Assembly: GCA_021462855.1 (NCBI GenBank) | Contig: JAJTXQ010000032.1 | Location: forward strand, 1-45,337 | DNA: 45,337 nt | DNA from: Dehalococcoidia bacterium | Lineage (GTDB): Bacteria; Chloroflexota; Dehalococcoidia; DSTF01; JACRBR01 | Reading direction: 5' to 3' | Notes under the pieces: generated by a model | Database searches by the model: none | Seen by the model: only the letters and a program-made list of their open reading frames with translations | What the model was told of the DNA's origin: nothing | Shown: positions 35,795-45,337 of the stretch, piece by piece | How the letters are laid out: each line of letters begins with the position of its first letter | How positions within the stretch are numbered: position 1 is the first letter of the stretch | Position numbers and translations under genes: made by a program

Positions 35795-36975
35795 ACGCGC
35801 GACGCGATCTTTCGCTCGATCCGCGCCAGCCGCAGCGCCAGCGCCTCGCGGCCGTCCGCGGCGCCGGCGAGGAGCCGCGCCGTCACCTCCCGCGCGGCGA
35901 GGAGGTCGCGGTCATGGTGTTCGTGGTGCTTCGCGAGCTCCAGGCCGGCCGCGCGGTCGCCCTCGGCCCAGAGCGCGCGCCACAGCGGCGCCGCTTCGTC
36001 CCGCGCGCCGGCGCGTTTGCACAGCGCGGCGTGTCGCAGCGCCGCCCATGCCCAATCCGGCCCGCCTTCCAGCCACGGCAACGCGCGCCGGTACAGCTCG
36101 GCCGCCCGCGCCGGCGCGCCGGCCGCCTCCCACCAGCGAGCAGCGGCCGCCGCGTCGTCCGGGTCGAGGTCGTCCGTGGAGACGAGCCGCGCGAGCGTAG
36201 CCAGCACGCCCGTCAGCGACAGCACGTCCTCGGCGTTGTGGTGGAAGACGCCGCGCAGCGGCGCCGCCCGCCCGGCCCGCACGTAGTCGAAGTACAGCTG
36301 GGGGACGAGCCAGCCCGGCGTGTCCTCGGGCCGGTCGATGCGGAGCAGGCGCCGCTCGGCCTCCGCGAGGCGACAGCCGCGCATCCGGTGCTTGAACAGC
36401 CGCCGCACCGGATGCAGCAGGTCGAAGTGCGCCATGTCGCGAGCCGGCGAGCGCAGCCGCGCCAGCGCCATCCGCGTTTCGACGCACGGCACGTCGAACG
36501 CCCGCCCGTTGTACGTGACGATGCCGTCGAACCGCTCCAGGTCAGCCGCCAGCAGCGCCAGCATCGCCCGCTCCTGCCCGACATCGGCCAGAAAGTACTG
36601 CCGCAGCCGGAACGCGCCGTCCTGGTACGAGCCGAGCCCAGCCAGCACGATGTACGTGCCGGTACCGCCGGACAGCCCCGTCGTCTCGATGTCGAAGAAC
36701 GCCAGCGAAGCCGCTTCGGGCGGCCGGTCGACGCCAAGGAGCGACGCCAGGCCGTGCGCCCGCGCCTCCAGCGGCGCAGAGAGAGGCATGCTGCCGTGCA
36801 TGTGGTCGAGCGGGTACCACTCATCGCGGATGAATGCCTGACCGTGCGGCGTGTCGCGCCACTCGCCGCGGAGGATCTGCTCAATCGGCGGCAGCAGCCG
36901 CGGCCGCGGCGCCGGAGCATGCGCCTCCCGATGCTCCGCGACCGCCCGGCGCATGCGCTCGAGCGTCACGCTCAC
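35758..36975 (-). CDS. mrfB: DEDD-type exonuclease MrfB (YprB-like)
   Basis: This RNase H-fold exonuclease works with the MrfA helicase in repair of mitomycin-type DNA adducts in Bacillus. The 405 residues contain ASLAFFDIETTGLSGGTGTY (DxE, exo I, about residue 88), FDGIVTYNGRAFDVPCVE (exo II), and VFHHNAEDVLSLTG (exo III with its HxxxD). The C-terminal third is a TPR-like helical region (AARWWEAAGAPARAAELYRR). The start GTG 36975 overlaps the mrfA stop (GTGA). Identification is by motif and neighbour; the exact lesion repaired is inferred from the Bacillus pair. Confidence 0.85.
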   Translation of the reverse strand: MSVTLERMRRAVAEHREAHAPAPRPRLLPPIEQILRGEWRDTPHGQAFIRDEWYPLDHMHGSMPLSAPLEARAHGLASLLGVDRPPEAASLAFFDIETTGLSGGTGTYIVLAGLGSYQDGAFRLRQYFLADVGQERAMLALLAADLERFDGIVTYNGRAFDVPCVETRMALARLRSPARDMAHFDLLHPVRRLFKHRMRGCRLAEAERRLLRIDRPEDTPGWLVPQLYFDYVRAGRAAPLRGVFHHNAEDVLSLTGVLATLARLVSTDDLDPDDAAAAARWWEAAGAPARAAELYRRALPWLEGGPDWAWAALRHAALCKRAGARDEAAPLWRALWAEGDRAAGLELAKHHEHHDRDLLAAREVTARLLAGAADGREALALRLARIERKIASRVQRAARQNVRTA

Positions 36976-39408: not shown

Positions 39409-42159
39409 ATGGGAGCAAGGATGCCATTCCGACGCCCACGCGCGGGTGAAGCGGACGCGGCAGCGCCGCGCGCGCCCTCGCGCGCCCGCTGGCCACGGCT
39501 CGTCCGGCCATCCCCCTACGTGGCGGCGCTCCTGGGCGTCGCCGCCGCCGTCGCGTTCGTCGCCGCGATCACCTACTTCGGCGCTTCGGCCTTCACCGAG
39601 CGCGCTGCCGACGACCGCGCGTCCGGCGAGGCGCGCTCCTTCGCCCGGCACAGCAGCACCACCGCCACCGGCGAGGCCTACAGCGGCTACCTGATGATCC
39701 TCCGCTACGCCGATGACCCGATCGTCCACACGCGCGCGACAGCCCCGCCGGCCCGTATCGCGGCGATGCAGCAGCTGCTGTATCTGAACACGAACCGCAT
39801 GGACGCGCTCGCCGTCGTCGACCGCACCGGCCTGATCCTCGCCACGACCGACGAGGCGATCGCCGACGTCCGCGAAAGCGAGGCGTTCCTGAAGACGCGG
39901 GCCCGCCTCGGTCCGGCGAATTCGGACATCGTCCTGGCCGACGGGGCGGAGCCGTACGTCGAGTACACCACGCCGCTGCGCGACCCGGACGGCACGATCT
40001 GGGCGTTCCTGTACGCGCGCGTGCATCCGGCGCGCCTGTGGGCAGCGACGCTCACCGCAAGCGTCGACGGCAGCCGCAACGTCATCATCAACGCCGAGGG
40101 CCGCTACGCCGCCGGGGTGCCCGCCGAACTCGTTGGGCAACCGTGGCGCGGCGTGCCGCTCGATGGGGGCGCCGTCCGTGCGCACATCGCCGGCGAAGCG
40201 ACGATCTGCGGGCTCGGCGCCATCGGCCGGGACACCCAGATCGACCACGGGTGGAACGTCGCGTCGTGCCTGCCGTCGTCGCTCATCCACGCCGAGGCGG
40301 ACGCCGCCATGGGCGAGCAGCGCCTCGTGACGCTGGCGGCCGCCGTGCTGGCGGTCGTGCTCGCCGGCGGCGTGCTGCGCGTGCTCCTCGCGCCTCAGCC
40401 GTCCGGCGACGCCGCCGCCCCGGCGACTGCGCCGGCCGGCGACACCGCCCTCCTGGACGAGCCGCCCACCGACGACCGCGACGAAGCGCTGGACGCCAAA
40501 CCTGTCGCCGATGGTCCGCCCGAACGCGTGCACGATGGACCGGCACGCCTCGAACCTGCGCCGCCGCCAGCCATCGTCATCGCGCCCGATGTCGATGCGA
40601 TCGAGCTGATCGACGCGTTCGAGCGGCGCAACGCGGCGCTCGCCGAACGCCTGCGCGAGACGGTGCAGGCGCGCCTCATGCTCGCCATGGCGCACGCCGA
40701 CGAAGCGTTCCGCCTCGCCGTCACCGGCGACGAGGAAGCGGCCGCCGAAGCGGCGGCGCTCCACGCCCGCGCGGTGGAGGAGATGGAGCAGCTCCGTGAG
40801 CGCGACCTGCGGGCGATCGGCCATGACCTGCATCCGGGCGTCGTCCGGCTCGGGCTGCCCGCGGCGCTGCGCGCCCTGCGCAAGGACCTCGATGGGCGCA
40901 TCGACCTCGACCTCAGCGTCGACCCCGCGTCGGACCGCGTCGGCGGCGGGGGCGCCATCGACAGCGCGCGGCGGATGCTCGTCTACCGCATCGTGCGCGA
41001 CGCCGTCGATGCGGTGGCAGACGCCGGCGCCACGGCGGCGAGCGTCACGGTCACGCGGGCGCGCGACGAACTCCGGGTGAGCGTCGAATCCGGCGCCTCC
41101 ACGTTCGACGCCGCGACGCTCGCGGCGCATGCGATCGCCGTCCAGGCGTACGGCGGCGAGCTGCTCGTCGATACGGACGACGGCGCGGCTCGCATCAGCG
41201 TCTCGCTGCCCGCCCCGGTCTCCGGGTTGCCCGGTAGCGGCGCGCCGCCTACCGCGGAAGATGACGTGCTTCCCCCCGCCGAGCCGTCCCCGGGCGGCGC
41301 GACGGTCGCCGAGATCCTGGAGCGCGCCCGCGCCGAGGTACCCGCCGTCGCCATGAGCATCGCCGTCGACCCGGCAGACGAACGCGTGGCGCCGCCGCCC
41401 GGACGCGCGGCGCTGCTCGCCAGCCTTGTGCGCGAGGCCGGGCACGCATTCGCCGCCGCGGGCGCGCGCGATCTGGGTCTCGCCGTCCAGCCGATCGACA
41501 GCGACATCGGCATCACCATGCGCGGTGACGTGCGGCTGGAGTTCGACGAGTCGGCGATCGCCGCCGTCTCGGAGGCGATCGAGGAGATCGACGGTTTCGT
41601 CGCGATCAGCCGCCGCGGCGACGTGGTCACCGTCACCGCGGAGATGCCCATCAACGGCGCCACGGAGCCCGAGACGGACGATCGCGCCGCCGCCGCGACT
41701 CAGCGGCCAGTCGTCGTCATTCCCGCGCCGCCGGACGCCCGCTCGTTCGCCGCGTCGCTGCGCCAGGCCGTCGACGCGCTGGACGCGCCGGCCACCGTCA
41801 CGCTCGAGATCGACGACGCCTCCCTCGCGTCCGCACCGACGATGCCGCTCGGCCTCGACGGCGCGCTGCTGCGTCTCGTCACCGACGCCGCTGCAGCGTT
41901 CGCGGCCGCCGGCGCCGAATCCGCGACGGTCACCCTCCGGCACAACGCGCCGGCAACGTTCCTGTCGCTCGCATCGCCGTCAGCCCGCTCGTTCGACGCG
42001 GCGACCCTCGCATCACACCGCGAATCCATCGAGGCCGCCGGCGCGTTCTTCGCCATCGCCCAGCGCGATGCAGGGGTCACGGTCACGGTCGAGGTCCCGG
42101 CCGGCCTCGAGTCGCCGCCCGCCGTCGTCCGCCTCGCCCCCCGCCCGGACGCCGCGTAG
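39409..42159 (+). CDS. Membrane sensor protein with three ATPase-like modules
   Basis: The 916-residue protein has TM helix 1 (about 36-60), an extracytoplasmic sensing region of about 245 residues, TM helix 2 (about 306-327) and a long cytoplasmic part. A disordered stretch leads to a helical segment, then ERDLRAIGHDLHPGVVRLG, which aligns with the NarX-type dimerisation box (ERxRIARELHD); the phospho-acceptor would be His475, though the following Asp is Pro. An HATPase-like module follows (YRIVRDAVDAVADAGATAAS) in which the N-box Asn is Asp. Two more modules of similar size and pattern come after (about 620-755 and 765-905), each ending in VTVTAEMP or VTVTVEVP. All three lack clear ATP-binding glycine boxes. 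Confidence 0.75.
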   Translation: MGARMPFRRPRAGEADAAAPRAPSRARWPRLVRPSPYVAALLGVAAAVAFVAAITYFGASAFTERAADDRASGEARSFARHSSTTATGEAYSGYLMILRYADDPIVHTRATAPPARIAAMQQLLYLNTNRMDALAVVDRTGLILATTDEAIADVRESEAFLKTRARLGPANSDIVLADGAEPYVEYTTPLRDPDGTIWAFLYARVHPARLWAATLTASVDGSRNVIINAEGRYAAGVPAELVGQPWRGVPLDGGAVRAHIAGEATICGLGAIGRDTQIDHGWNVASCLPSSLIHAEADAAMGEQRLVTLAAAVLAVVLAGGVLRVLLAPQPSGDAAAPATAPAGDTALLDEPPTDDRDEALDAKPVADGPPERVHDGPARLEPAPPPAIVIAPDVDAIELIDAFERRNAALAERLRETVQARLMLAMAHADEAFRLAVTGDEEAAAEAAALHARAVEEMEQLRERDLRAIGHDLHPGVVRLGLPAALRALRKDLDGRIDLDLSVDPASDRVGGGGAIDSARRMLVYRIVRDAVDAVADAGATAASVTVTRARDELRVSVESGASTFDAATLAAHAIAVQAYGGELLVDTDDGAARISVSLPAPVSGLPGSGAPPTAEDDVLPPAEPSPGGATVAEILERARAEVPAVAMSIAVDPADERVAPPPGRAALLASLVREAGHAFAAAGARDLGLAVQPIDSDIGITMRGDVRLEFDESAIAAVSEAIEEIDGFVAISRRGDVVTVTAEMPINGATEPETDDRAAAATQRPVVVIPAPPDARSFAASLRQAVDALDAPATVTLEIDDASLASAPTMPLGLDGALLRLVTDAAAAFAAAGAESATVTLRHNAPATFLSLASPSARSFDAATLASHRESIEAAGAFFAIAQRDAGVTVTVEVPAGLESPPAVVRLAPRPDAA

Positions 42160-42777: not shown

Positions 42778-43497
42778 CTACGCCGCCTTGCGCGTACGGG
42801 GCTGCGGGTCGGGCGAGTCGTCCTGCGTGCCGCCGCTGACCGACTCCTGCAGGTAGAGCAGGACCGCCTTGACGCGCGGGTGCGCGGCGTTGTCGCGGCT
42901 CAGGTTCAGCTGCCCGAAGATGGCGTTGATGTGGTTCTCGACGGACTTCTCCTCGAGCACCAGCGCGCGGGCGATGGCGCCGTTGTTGTAGCCCTTCGCC
43001 ATGAGCGACAGCACTTCGAGCTGGCGGCGCGTGAGCGCCGAGAGGCGCGTCTCGCGGCGGCCGAGGCTCTCGACGACGAGCGGGTCGAGCACGACCAGCC
43101 CCATCGCCGCGCCATCGATCGCCCGCACGAGCGTCGCGACGTCGGATACCGACTGACGCAGCAGGTACGACCAGCCCGCCGCGCGGAACGCAGGCAGGGC
43201 CGCCAGCGTGCGCCGGTCGGGCCGCTCGCCGAGGAAGATGATGCGCGTGCTTTCGGGCCGCGTGCCGGAGATCGCCTGCGCCAGCGCCAGCGCATCGTGC
43301 TCGCTGTCAGCGTCCAGGCCAATCACCGCAACGTCGGGGCGTTCACTGGTCGCGAGGTGCACGGCCTCGGAGGCGTCGCCGGTGGCGCCGGCGAGGTCGA
43401 GCCGCGACTCGGCGGAAAGCACGGCGCGCAGCATGTCTCGCAGGAGGCCATCGCTCTCCACGATCATGACGCGCGTGCGGGATTCGGTGCGTTCCAT
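42778..43497 (-). CDS. NarL/LuxR-type response regulator with atypical receiver
   Basis: The 239-residue protein starts at ATG 43497. Residues 9-125 form a receiver, but its key residues are changed: the acidic pair is Glu-Ser (VMIVESDGLL), the phospho-acceptor position is Gly (RPDVAVIGLDADSE) and the conserved Lys is Arg (WSYLLRQSV). The C-terminal LuxR-type helix-turn-helix is normal (LSALTRRQLEVLSLMAKGYNNGAIARALVLEEKSVENHINAIFGQL). It likely binds DNA without Asp phosphorylation. It is divergent from the archaellin genes and convergent with the dehydrogenase remnant; the sensor two genes away is a possible partner. Confidence 0.88.
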   Translation of the reverse strand: MERTESRTRVMIVESDGLLRDMLRAVLSAESRLDLAGATGDASEAVHLATSERPDVAVIGLDADSEHDALALAQAISGTRPESTRIIFLGERPDRRTLAALPAFRAAGWSYLLRQSVSDVATLVRAIDGAAMGLVVLDPLVVESLGRRETRLSALTRRQLEVLSLMAKGYNNGAIARALVLEEKSVENHINAIFGQLNLSRDNAAHPRVKAVLLYLQESVSGGTQDDSPDPQPRTRKAA

Positions 43498-43700
43498 ACC
43501 CACGGTGGGGTTATCGGGCCAGCGCTCGAAGCAACGCATGAGGGTTTTGCTGATTCTCGCCAGACTCGCGCCGCTCGTTCCGCGGGTGCCCCTCGCGCGC
43601 GCCCGGCTCAGGGATTTCCCCGATGCCACGCGACCGCCCGCCGCGCGATGCTGGTGTGCGCGCTCCCGGACTCCGGGCGCGTGAGCGGCGAGGAGGCCGG
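43498..43700. promoter_or_regulatory. Divergent region between the regulator and archaellin 1
   Basis: These 203 bases should hold both promoters. I see a small CCCGG-ACT-CCGGG hairpin at 43665-43677 and a GAGGAGG ribosome-binding site (43690-43696) for archaellin 1. The bipartite element found before archaellins 2 and 3 is absent. No confident -10 or -35 could be assigned. Confidence 0.4.
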
Positions 43701-44261
43701 TTGCCCATCCGGGACGTTTCACACGGCGAGCGCGGGATCACCGGCATCGAGACGGCGATCGTCTTTGTCGCCTTCGTCGTCGTCGCGACGTTGTTCGCCT
43801 TCACCGCGCTCAGCACGGGCCTGTTCACCTCGGATCGCGGCCGGGAGACCGTCTCCGCCGGCCTGGCGAAATCGCAAGGCTCGCTCTATGTCTCGGGCAG
43901 CGTCATGGTCACGACGGACCTCACGCAGGTGACGTCCGTTGAACTCACGGTGGCCCTGGCGGCTGGCAGCGAGCCGGTGGACTTCGACCCTGCCAGCGGC
44001 ACGGTATTCGCCGCCGTAACGAGCGCCACCCGCATCAGCGACCTCACGTACACGACGGCCAACGTCGTCGGCGATGGTGATCCCGCCCTCGAACCGGGCG
44101 AGCTGCTCGCCGTGTCGCTTGACATCGCCGCGCACCCGTCGCTGGTGCTCACAGCCAACGACACGTTCGCGATCGAGGTGAATCCGCCGGGTGGCTCCCT
44201 CGTCGTCATCCAGCGCACGCTTCCGTCCTCGATCGCGCGGCCGGTGGTCGACCTCAACTGA
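43701..44261 (+). CDS. Archaellin (archaeal-type flagellin) 1
   Basis: Archaellins polymerise into the rotating archaellum filament. The protein (186 residues) starts at TTG 43701, five bases after GAGGAGG. A class III signal peptide is clear: a short basic N-terminus ending GERG, cleavage expected after Gly12, then ITGIETAIVFVAFVVVATLF, the hydrophobic assembly helix with Glu at +5. SDRGRETVSAGLAKSQGS completes the archaellin N-terminal signature. The remainder is beta-strand-rich and ends in DLN, as does archaellin 2. Its N-terminus is shorter and less basic than in the other two copies. Type IV pilins have similar leaders, but the ERG-ITG plus LSTGLF pattern is archaellin-like. Confidence 0.88.
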   Translation: MPIRDVSHGERGITGIETAIVFVAFVVVATLFAFTALSTGLFTSDRGRETVSAGLAKSQGSLYVSGSVMVTTDLTQVTSVELTVALAAGSEPVDFDPASGTVFAAVTSATRISDLTYTTANVVGDGDPALEPGELLAVSLDIAAHPSLVLTANDTFAIEVNPPGGSLVVIQRTLPSSIARPVVDLN

Positions 44262-44338
44262 CCTAAGGCCCCCGCGTCATTCCCCTACGGCCGAGACCTC
44301 GACGCGCTGCGCTGCGCCAGCTTCGCGCTGGGTGCGTG

Positions 44339-44395
44339 CACCCCCGCAAATTGGGGGCGCGTACCATGCGAGTCCTCCCCTAAGGGAACGACCCT
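44339..44395 (+). promoter_or_regulatory. Bipartite leader element of archaellin 2
   Basis: CACCCCC-GCAAATT-GGGGG forms an inverted repeat, followed by GCGCGTACCATG; TACCAT (44362-44367) is a candidate -10. ACGACCCT follows 19 bases after TACCATG, at 44388-44395. The same parts, in the same order and spacing, precede archaellin 3. If TACCAT is the -10, the mRNA has a leader of about 100 bases. The rest of the 215-base gap contains small GC hairpins and nothing else recognised. Confidence 0.55.
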
Positions 44396-44476
44396 ACATG
44401 CGAAGACAGAAGGACGCCGGGCATTCGGGGCAGGGAACGTCCCTACCCGCCAGGTGGCGGCAAAGGGGGAACCAAG

Positions 44477-45052
44477 ATGAAGCGCATTCTGCAGCTTGTG
44501 CGCCGTATCCGCGAGGAGCGGGGCATCACGGGTTTGGAGACGGCGATCATCCTCATCGCATTCGTCGTCGTGGCGGCGGTGTTCGCGTTCGTCGTGCTGA
44601 GCACGGGGCTCTTCAGCTCCGAGCGCGGCAAGGAGACGGTGTACGCCGGCCTCTCGAAGACGCGGGGGACGATGACCCTCTCCAGCAGCGTCATCGGCAC
44701 GTCCGATGGTTCGGAGATCACCGATCTGGCGTTCGACGTCGTGCTGGCGGCGGGCGGCGAGAACGTGAACCTCGACCCGACGGCCATCTCGAACCGCACG
44801 GTCATCAGCTACATCGACACGGCGAACAATGTGCCGGACCTCGCGTACACGGTGACCGTCATCACGGGCGACGCGGACAACCTGCTCGAGCCCGGCGAGC
44901 TGATCGAGGTCTCGGTCACCGGCCTGGCGCCGTACGACCTGCAGCCGAACAAGACGTTCACGCTCGAAATCAAGCCTCCCACGGGCTCGTACCTGGTGCT
45001 CCAGCGGACCACGCCGGCGTCGGTCGCGGAGACCATCATCAACCTGAACTGA
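44477..45052 (+). CDS. Archaellin (archaeal-type flagellin) 2
   Basis: The 191-residue protein is the best preserved archaellin here. The class III signal peptide has five Arg and one Lys (MKRILQLVRRIREERG), with cleavage expected after Gly16. Then comes the canonical assembly helix ITGLETAIILIAFVVVAAVF with Glu at +5, and the STGLFSSERGKETVYAGL signature. The C-terminal domain is beta-rich (LAFDVVLAAGGENVNLDP, KTFTLEIKPPTGSYLVLQ), the outer filament domain. It is similar to archaellin 1 along its whole length. AAGGGGGAA is a probable ribosome-binding site, eight bases before ATG. The prepilin-type peptidase and motor genes would be expected downstream of the window. Confidence 0.92.
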   Translation: MKRILQLVRRIREERGITGLETAIILIAFVVVAAVFAFVVLSTGLFSSERGKETVYAGLSKTRGTMTLSSSVIGTSDGSEITDLAFDVVLAAGGENVNLDPTAISNRTVISYIDTANNVPDLAYTVTVITGDADNLLEPGELIEVSVTGLAPYDLQPNKTFTLEIKPPTGSYLVLQRTTPASVAETIINLN

Positions 45053-45075
45053 CGGGCGCCCGGCGGCACCGGCAG

Positions 45076-45109
45076 GAGGGGCTGGCTGCGGAATCGCAGC
45101 CGGCCCCTC
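45076..45109 (+). terminator. Strong hairpin after archaellin 2
   Basis: A 15-base stem with a single G-U wobble and a GAAT loop (45076-45090 pairing with 45095-45109) lies 24 bases after the archaellin 2 stop. It is followed by GTTATG rather than a run of T. It is probably a terminator or an mRNA-stabilising end, separating archaellin 2 from 3. Confidence 0.65.
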
Positions 45110-45150
45110 GTTATGTCGCAGACTCAGCGGTCGCTCAGTGCGGGGGCAGG

Positions 45151-45208
45151 CACCCGCCGAATCAGGGTGCGCCTACCATGACCGGATCACGGATGCGCGT
45201 ACGACCCT
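45151..45208 (+). promoter_or_regulatory. Bipartite leader element of archaellin 3
   Basis: GCACCC-GCCGAATCA-GGGTGC is a perfect six-base inverted repeat (45150-45170), followed by GCCTACCATG with TACCAT at 45174-45179 and ACGACCCT at 45201-45208. The distance from CACCC to TACCATG is 23 bases, as at archaellin 2, and from TACCATG to ACGACCCT is 20 bases against 19. Sequence between the boxes is not conserved, so the boxes are under selection. Confidence 0.55.
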
Positions 45209-45280
45209 TAGTCGGAGCGGGAACTCCCCCTTTCGGCAGGATGCCACCGCGGCCGCCGGGGCCAATCAGGAGGTAGCCAA

Positions 45281-45337
45281 GTGAAGCGCATCTGGGAGTC
45301 CATGCGCCGCGTACGCGAGGAGCGCGGCATCACTGGC
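45281..45337 (+). CDS. Archaellin 3, 5' end only
   Basis: Only 19 codons are visible before the window ends. The GTG start at 45281 follows AGGAGG by seven bases. The encoded MKRIWESMRRVREERGITG is almost the same as the signal peptide of archaellin 2, with the same ERG-ITG cleavage context, so a third archaellin gene begins here. Confidence 0.82.
   Translation, partial: MKRIWESMRRVREERGITG

Follow-up and report, generated by a model that had tools for sequence, protein, structure and literature searches.

Archaella in bacteria are one of the few examples of an entire motility machine passing from one domain to another, and the DNA described here (the window, a stretch of 45,337 nucleotides that ends in a group of archaellin genes) raises the question of whether its bacterial owner encodes the rest of that machine, and where. 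The archaellum of Chloroflexota is in itself an already known, published kind, as the first-pass annotation of the window had correctly stated (PMC10444878, PMC12488501): SAR202 archaellum genes were reported in 2023 (PMC10444878), and in 2025 Litorilinea aerophila was described with a functional, structurally solved archaellum with which its cells swim (PMC12488501). In our reading, to which we give a probability of roughly 0.87, the window ends in the 5' portion of a bacterial archaellum locus, which runs on, in contig C22, into an arlCDE-like gene, arlG, arlF, arlJ and an amidase gene, with arlHI encoded apart on contig C14 and a mechanism proposed by homology. What is new, as far as checked, is the split layout together with the linked amidase; neither was found described in a literature search on gene-order variants, in which PMC12488501 was the sole paper to come up.

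Archaellin genes on a bacterial contig

The right end of the window holds the following genes:

43701..44261, + strand: archaellin gene 1 (arlB1), 186 aa, TTG start, PF01917
44477..45052, + strand: archaellin gene 2 (arlB2), 191 aa, leader MKRILQLVRRIREERG followed by ITGLETAI
45281..45337, + strand: archaellin gene 3, start only; GTG start, leader VKRIWESMRRVREERGITG, 19 codons, then the contig end

Read directly, both arlB1 and arlB2 encode a basic leader, ERG followed by ITG(L/I)ETAI, a hydrophobic helix, STGLF and RG(R/K)ETV(S/Y)AGL. Three consecutive archaellin genes with the full signature had been proposed; the count of three stands, and the full signature holds for two, the third being seen as a leader only, with its helix and signature outside the window. 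Both complete genes lie well above the PF01917 cut-off of 29.5 bits (arlB1, E 9e-25, 88.3 bits; arlB2, E 1.5e-28, 100.6 bits), and arlB2 also passes that of TIGR02537, the archaellin N-terminal domain; together with the directly read leader, these matches mark archaellins with a class III signal peptide. They are far beyond chance, because among 14 control genomes PF01917 matched only archaeal ones. The best solved-structure match of arlB2 is 9i5h with 9sie and 9sii (E 8e-36), and 9SIE and 9SII are deposited archaellum structures of L. aerophila. The TTG start of arlB1 at 43701 stands 4 nt after an AGGAGG ribosome-binding site (43691-43696); ATG 43623 is an alternative start.

The host is a bacterium, as had been claimed from the flanks: UppS, Dxr and UvrC genes share the contig with the archaellins, and both an ArlI alignment scan and a tree of ArlI plus ArlJ place it in Chloroflexota, class Dehalococcoidia. 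In the scan, its closest named relatives are Dehalococcoidia bacterium MAG008 (78% identity), WY5.bin150 and REEB247 (both 79%).

A machine encoded in two places

The genome is a 3.02 Mb draft in 76 contigs (97.5% complete, contamination estimate 4.41%), of which the window is contig C26. The ATPase and platform genes on which the first-pass annotation had hinged are present, on two other contigs:

C22, contig start: archaellin tail
C22:254-829: complete archaellin
C22:907-1554: ArlCDE-like protein (iterated profile)
C22:1607-2059: ArlG (profile)
C22:2072-2581: ArlF (profile)
C22:2584-4179: ArlJ (profile)
C22:4192-4689: small protein of no assigned family
C22:4696-5703: Amidase_3 protein
C14, from about 30469 downward (longer ORF starts 30769), − strand: ArlH
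C14:29758 to 28004, − strand: ArlI

The motor ATPase ArlI, with its ATPase motifs intact, and ArlH pass their profiles (NF058587, 631 bits against a cut-off of 550; NF004723, 258 bits against 194). The platform protein ArlJ matches NF004703 with 456 bits (E 1e-136), under an equivalog cut-off of 570 that no genome of the class searched passes. The stators are recognised at E 4e-9 (ArlG) and E 8e-6 (ArlF), both under their NCBIfam equivalog cut-offs; the ArlG-like protein is above the PF01917 cut-off, and the two genes sit in their expected positions between arlCDE and arlJ. C22:907-1554 has no Pfam or NCBIfam match, and an iterated profile ties it to proteins that occupy the ArlCDE position in archaea. 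The sole PF01478 peptidase found in the genome lies on C33 near 148 kb (55 bits) and is a candidate class III signal peptidase, of either archaeal (FlaK/PibD) or bacterial type. The genes arlH, arlI, arlJ and arlG are under purifying selection, with pN/pS of 0.21-0.46 (0.21-0.45 for arlH, arlI and arlJ), rough values from a simple counting method on GC-rich codons.

C22 is taken as the continuation of the window because relative G003 shows the same genes in order on one contig: homologues of the window genes at 36834 and 39409 and of the regulator at 42778, then four archaellin genes, C, G, F and J, followed by the genes for the small protein and the amidase and by those that come after them on C22. 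This synteny, rather than sequence overlap, bridges the gap and supports the junction. The forecast of the remaining machine genes just past the right edge thus holds for arlCGFJ and fails for arlHI. Counting window gene 3 and the C22 archaellin tail as one gene, the array has at least four archaellins. A lone archaellin (L013, C33:87409-87897, − strand), 61% identical to archaellin 2, lies apart from the array.

How unusual is this layout? We read gene order in about 90 loci. Wherever the stretch read contains the genes, archaeal and most bacterial loci have the order B-C-G-F-H-I-J, some Dehalococcoidales have B-G-F-J-C-H-I, and the window's family has HI cut out, with arlHI apart from arlBCGFJ in all five family genomes where both were found. 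ArlI and ArlJ were found together in 52 of the 393 genomes sampled from the class; outside the window's family they share a contig and strand, no more than 2.2 kb apart, in every case (47/47), inside it in none (0/5). In G000, G003, G004 and G006, HI is on a different contig from arlBCGFJ; in G002 it shares a contig with the archaellins, facing away from them at a distance of about 2 kb on the upstream side. A tandem arlI pair was seen in five Dehalococcoidia loci (L087, L092, L099, L100, L115), with ATPase motifs intact in both copies, unread letters in L092 aside; we found no mention of such pairs in PMC12488501.

The ArlI plus ArlJ tree (78 rows, quick method) gathers the bacterial archaellum loci into one group (100*), separate from the archaeal loci with the exception of L079, and the split rows into one group (100*), in which G002 branches first. 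Since the five split genomes form one supported group with G002 branching first, one rearrangement and a later move are enough to account for them. The separation of the bacterial group agrees with the published transfer of the archaellum from euryarchaea (PMC12488501). The exception, L079, carries the label Candidatus Fermentibacteria, yet in the tree this archaellum contig falls inside Methanosarcinales on very short branches; on that placement we rejected it as a second bacterial phylum with an archaellum, and it is probably a misplaced archaeal contig.

The split has consequences for how such machines are run and found. It shows that co-transcription of arlHI with arlJ is not a requirement, and surveys that ask for one locus miss split genomes. 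The census of PMC12488501 asked for the core genes plus arlB within a single locus; the window's genome, with arlHI on C14 and arlBCGFJ on C26/C22, does not fit that rule, and split genomes would not be counted because one locus is required. The single-locus criterion is a census detection rule, not a property of the machine.

An amidase beside arlJ and a candidate regulator beside arlB

An Amidase_3 gene starts 0.3-0.5 kb past arlJ in six genomes of the window's family, plus G008 and PFL39 of the sister group. None was found at the other archaellum loci examined, bacterial or archaeal, many of which extend over 8 kb further downstream. The amidase gene is retained while other genes downstream of arlJ vary. 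In a genome-wide search, which also served to assess amidase linkage in families f3 and f4, close homologues were found in G000-G004, G006, G008 and G010 and none in the more distant order-mates of family f4, with or without an archaellum; every near-complete genome searched of the two amidase families, the window's and its sister, has archaellum genes. Read directly, the C22 amidase keeps the motifs DPGH, a TEAE segment, LHGN and LLEFLF, and has an N-terminal hydrophobic helix. Its neighbourhood, in this one clade, suggests that the amidase may open peptidoglycan locally for the machine or filament. How the archaellum is held in place in Chloroflexota that have peptidoglycan but no PilN or PilO is described as unknown (PMC13319060), and an amidase gene fixed beside arlJ in one clade is a direct, testable candidate.

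At the other end of the array lie two further genes:

42778..43722, − strand: candidate regulator of LuxR/GerE type, transcribed divergently from arlB1; weak receiver-like domain
39409..42159, + strand: large protein, 916 aa, near arlB, in the same place in G002 and G003

The regulator matches PF00196 at E 3.5e-11 and PF00072 at E 5e-4, the latter under its cut-off. Here, and in relatives from several families, the first archaellin gene has a LuxR-type neighbour, mostly in divergent orientation; homologues of the window's regulator occur at L052, L059, L066, L070, L074, L096, L124, L126, L130, L132 and L136 (several Dehalococcoidia). In the receiver-like part, the alignment shows a glycine in place of the usual phosphorylated aspartate in the window's family, and the aspartate is also missing in some Dehalococcoidales. 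Neither LuxR nor a response regulator is mentioned in the two texts searched. The 916-aa protein matches no Pfam family at E 1; it has homologues 41-51% identical in L129 and L130, and a homologue gives a single sub-threshold dCache_1 match. By eye it resembles a histidine/sensor kinase, an identity unconfirmed by the Pfam search.

A probable working archaellum and its known relatives

The genome most likely encodes a working archaellum, from which we infer a filament, rotation and swimming. By homology to characterised archaella, a prepilin peptidase would cleave the archaellins before ITG, the motor ATPase ArlI with KaiC-like ArlH would power first filament assembly on ArlJ and later rotation, the stator would consist of ArlF and ArlG, ArlCDE would act as a cytosolic accessory complex, and the cell would swim; the amidase may open the wall for the filament.

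Could these genes be something else? One might suspect that bacterial type IV or Tad pilins have here been mistaken for archaellins, given the further T2SSE ATPases encoded at C76, C44 and C8. The best solved matches are archaellins, however, and the locus runs on into arl genes; the profile scan, a check that the first-pass annotation had named, puts no pilin family above cut-off (only PF01917 passes, and DUF4244, at E 0.015, stays below its own), and we reject this identity as having next to no chance of being right. Archaeal contamination of the bin, with an estimate of 4.41% and one such case probably seen in L079, is no more credible: the archaellin contig also carries bacterial uppS, dxr and uvrC, the same gene order and neighbours turn up in several other assemblies, and the tree places the genes among bacterial loci, so synteny and tree lead us to reject it. 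An assembly artefact would be the natural suspicion for a split seen in a draft of 76 contigs. It is very improbable here, since the split is present in five assemblies, G002 has both units on one contig in opposite directions, no contig end lies within 45 kb of either unit in G003, and on C22 arlJ comes directly after arlF.

A change of use deserves more weight, and moving arlHI out could in principle reflect decay or such a change. The filament might be a non-rotating adhesive or surface-sensing pilus rather than a swimming organ. Two things would suit that: arlHI are uncoupled from the filament genes, and CheW was not found in the genome, hence no classical chemotaxis input. Against this, the archaellum-specific ArlH, ArlF and ArlG are retained and under purifying selection, and L. 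aerophila swims by a related machine (PMC12488501); we consider the pilus unlikely. Within the preferred reading, a working archaellum, we envision, as a tentative idea that we would not yet bet on, that this Dehalococcoidia family acquired an archaellum and refitted it for a peptidoglycan wall, with arlHI moved out and separately controlled, a dedicated amidase beside arlJ and a LuxR-type regulator at the archaellin promoter.

Among known systems, L. aerophila shares with the window's genome the archaellin family (E 8e-36), the arl2-type order with arlG before arlF, arlCDE instead of arlX and the lack of bacterial flagellin (PMC12488501); Flagellin_N was not found in our genome, and bacterial flagellin is absent from other archaellated Chloroflexota as well (PMC12488501). 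It differs in that L. aerophila has pilN and pilO-LysM genes nearby (PMC12488501), whereas the window's genome has arlHI in a separate place and a peptidoglycan amidase gene after arlJ. Candidatus Lucifugimonas marina (SAR202), of the same class, also has tandem archaellins followed by arl genes, and more archaellins elsewhere in its genome; its flaGFHIJ form one cluster, whereas here HI is cut out (PMC10444878). The arl2 clusters of Methanotecta archaea (Archaeoglobus, Methanosarcina, Methanoculleus) have the same set, B-C-G-F-H-I-J, with ArlI about 50% identical; wherever the sampled loci contain these genes, they form a single locus, without an amidase after arlJ.
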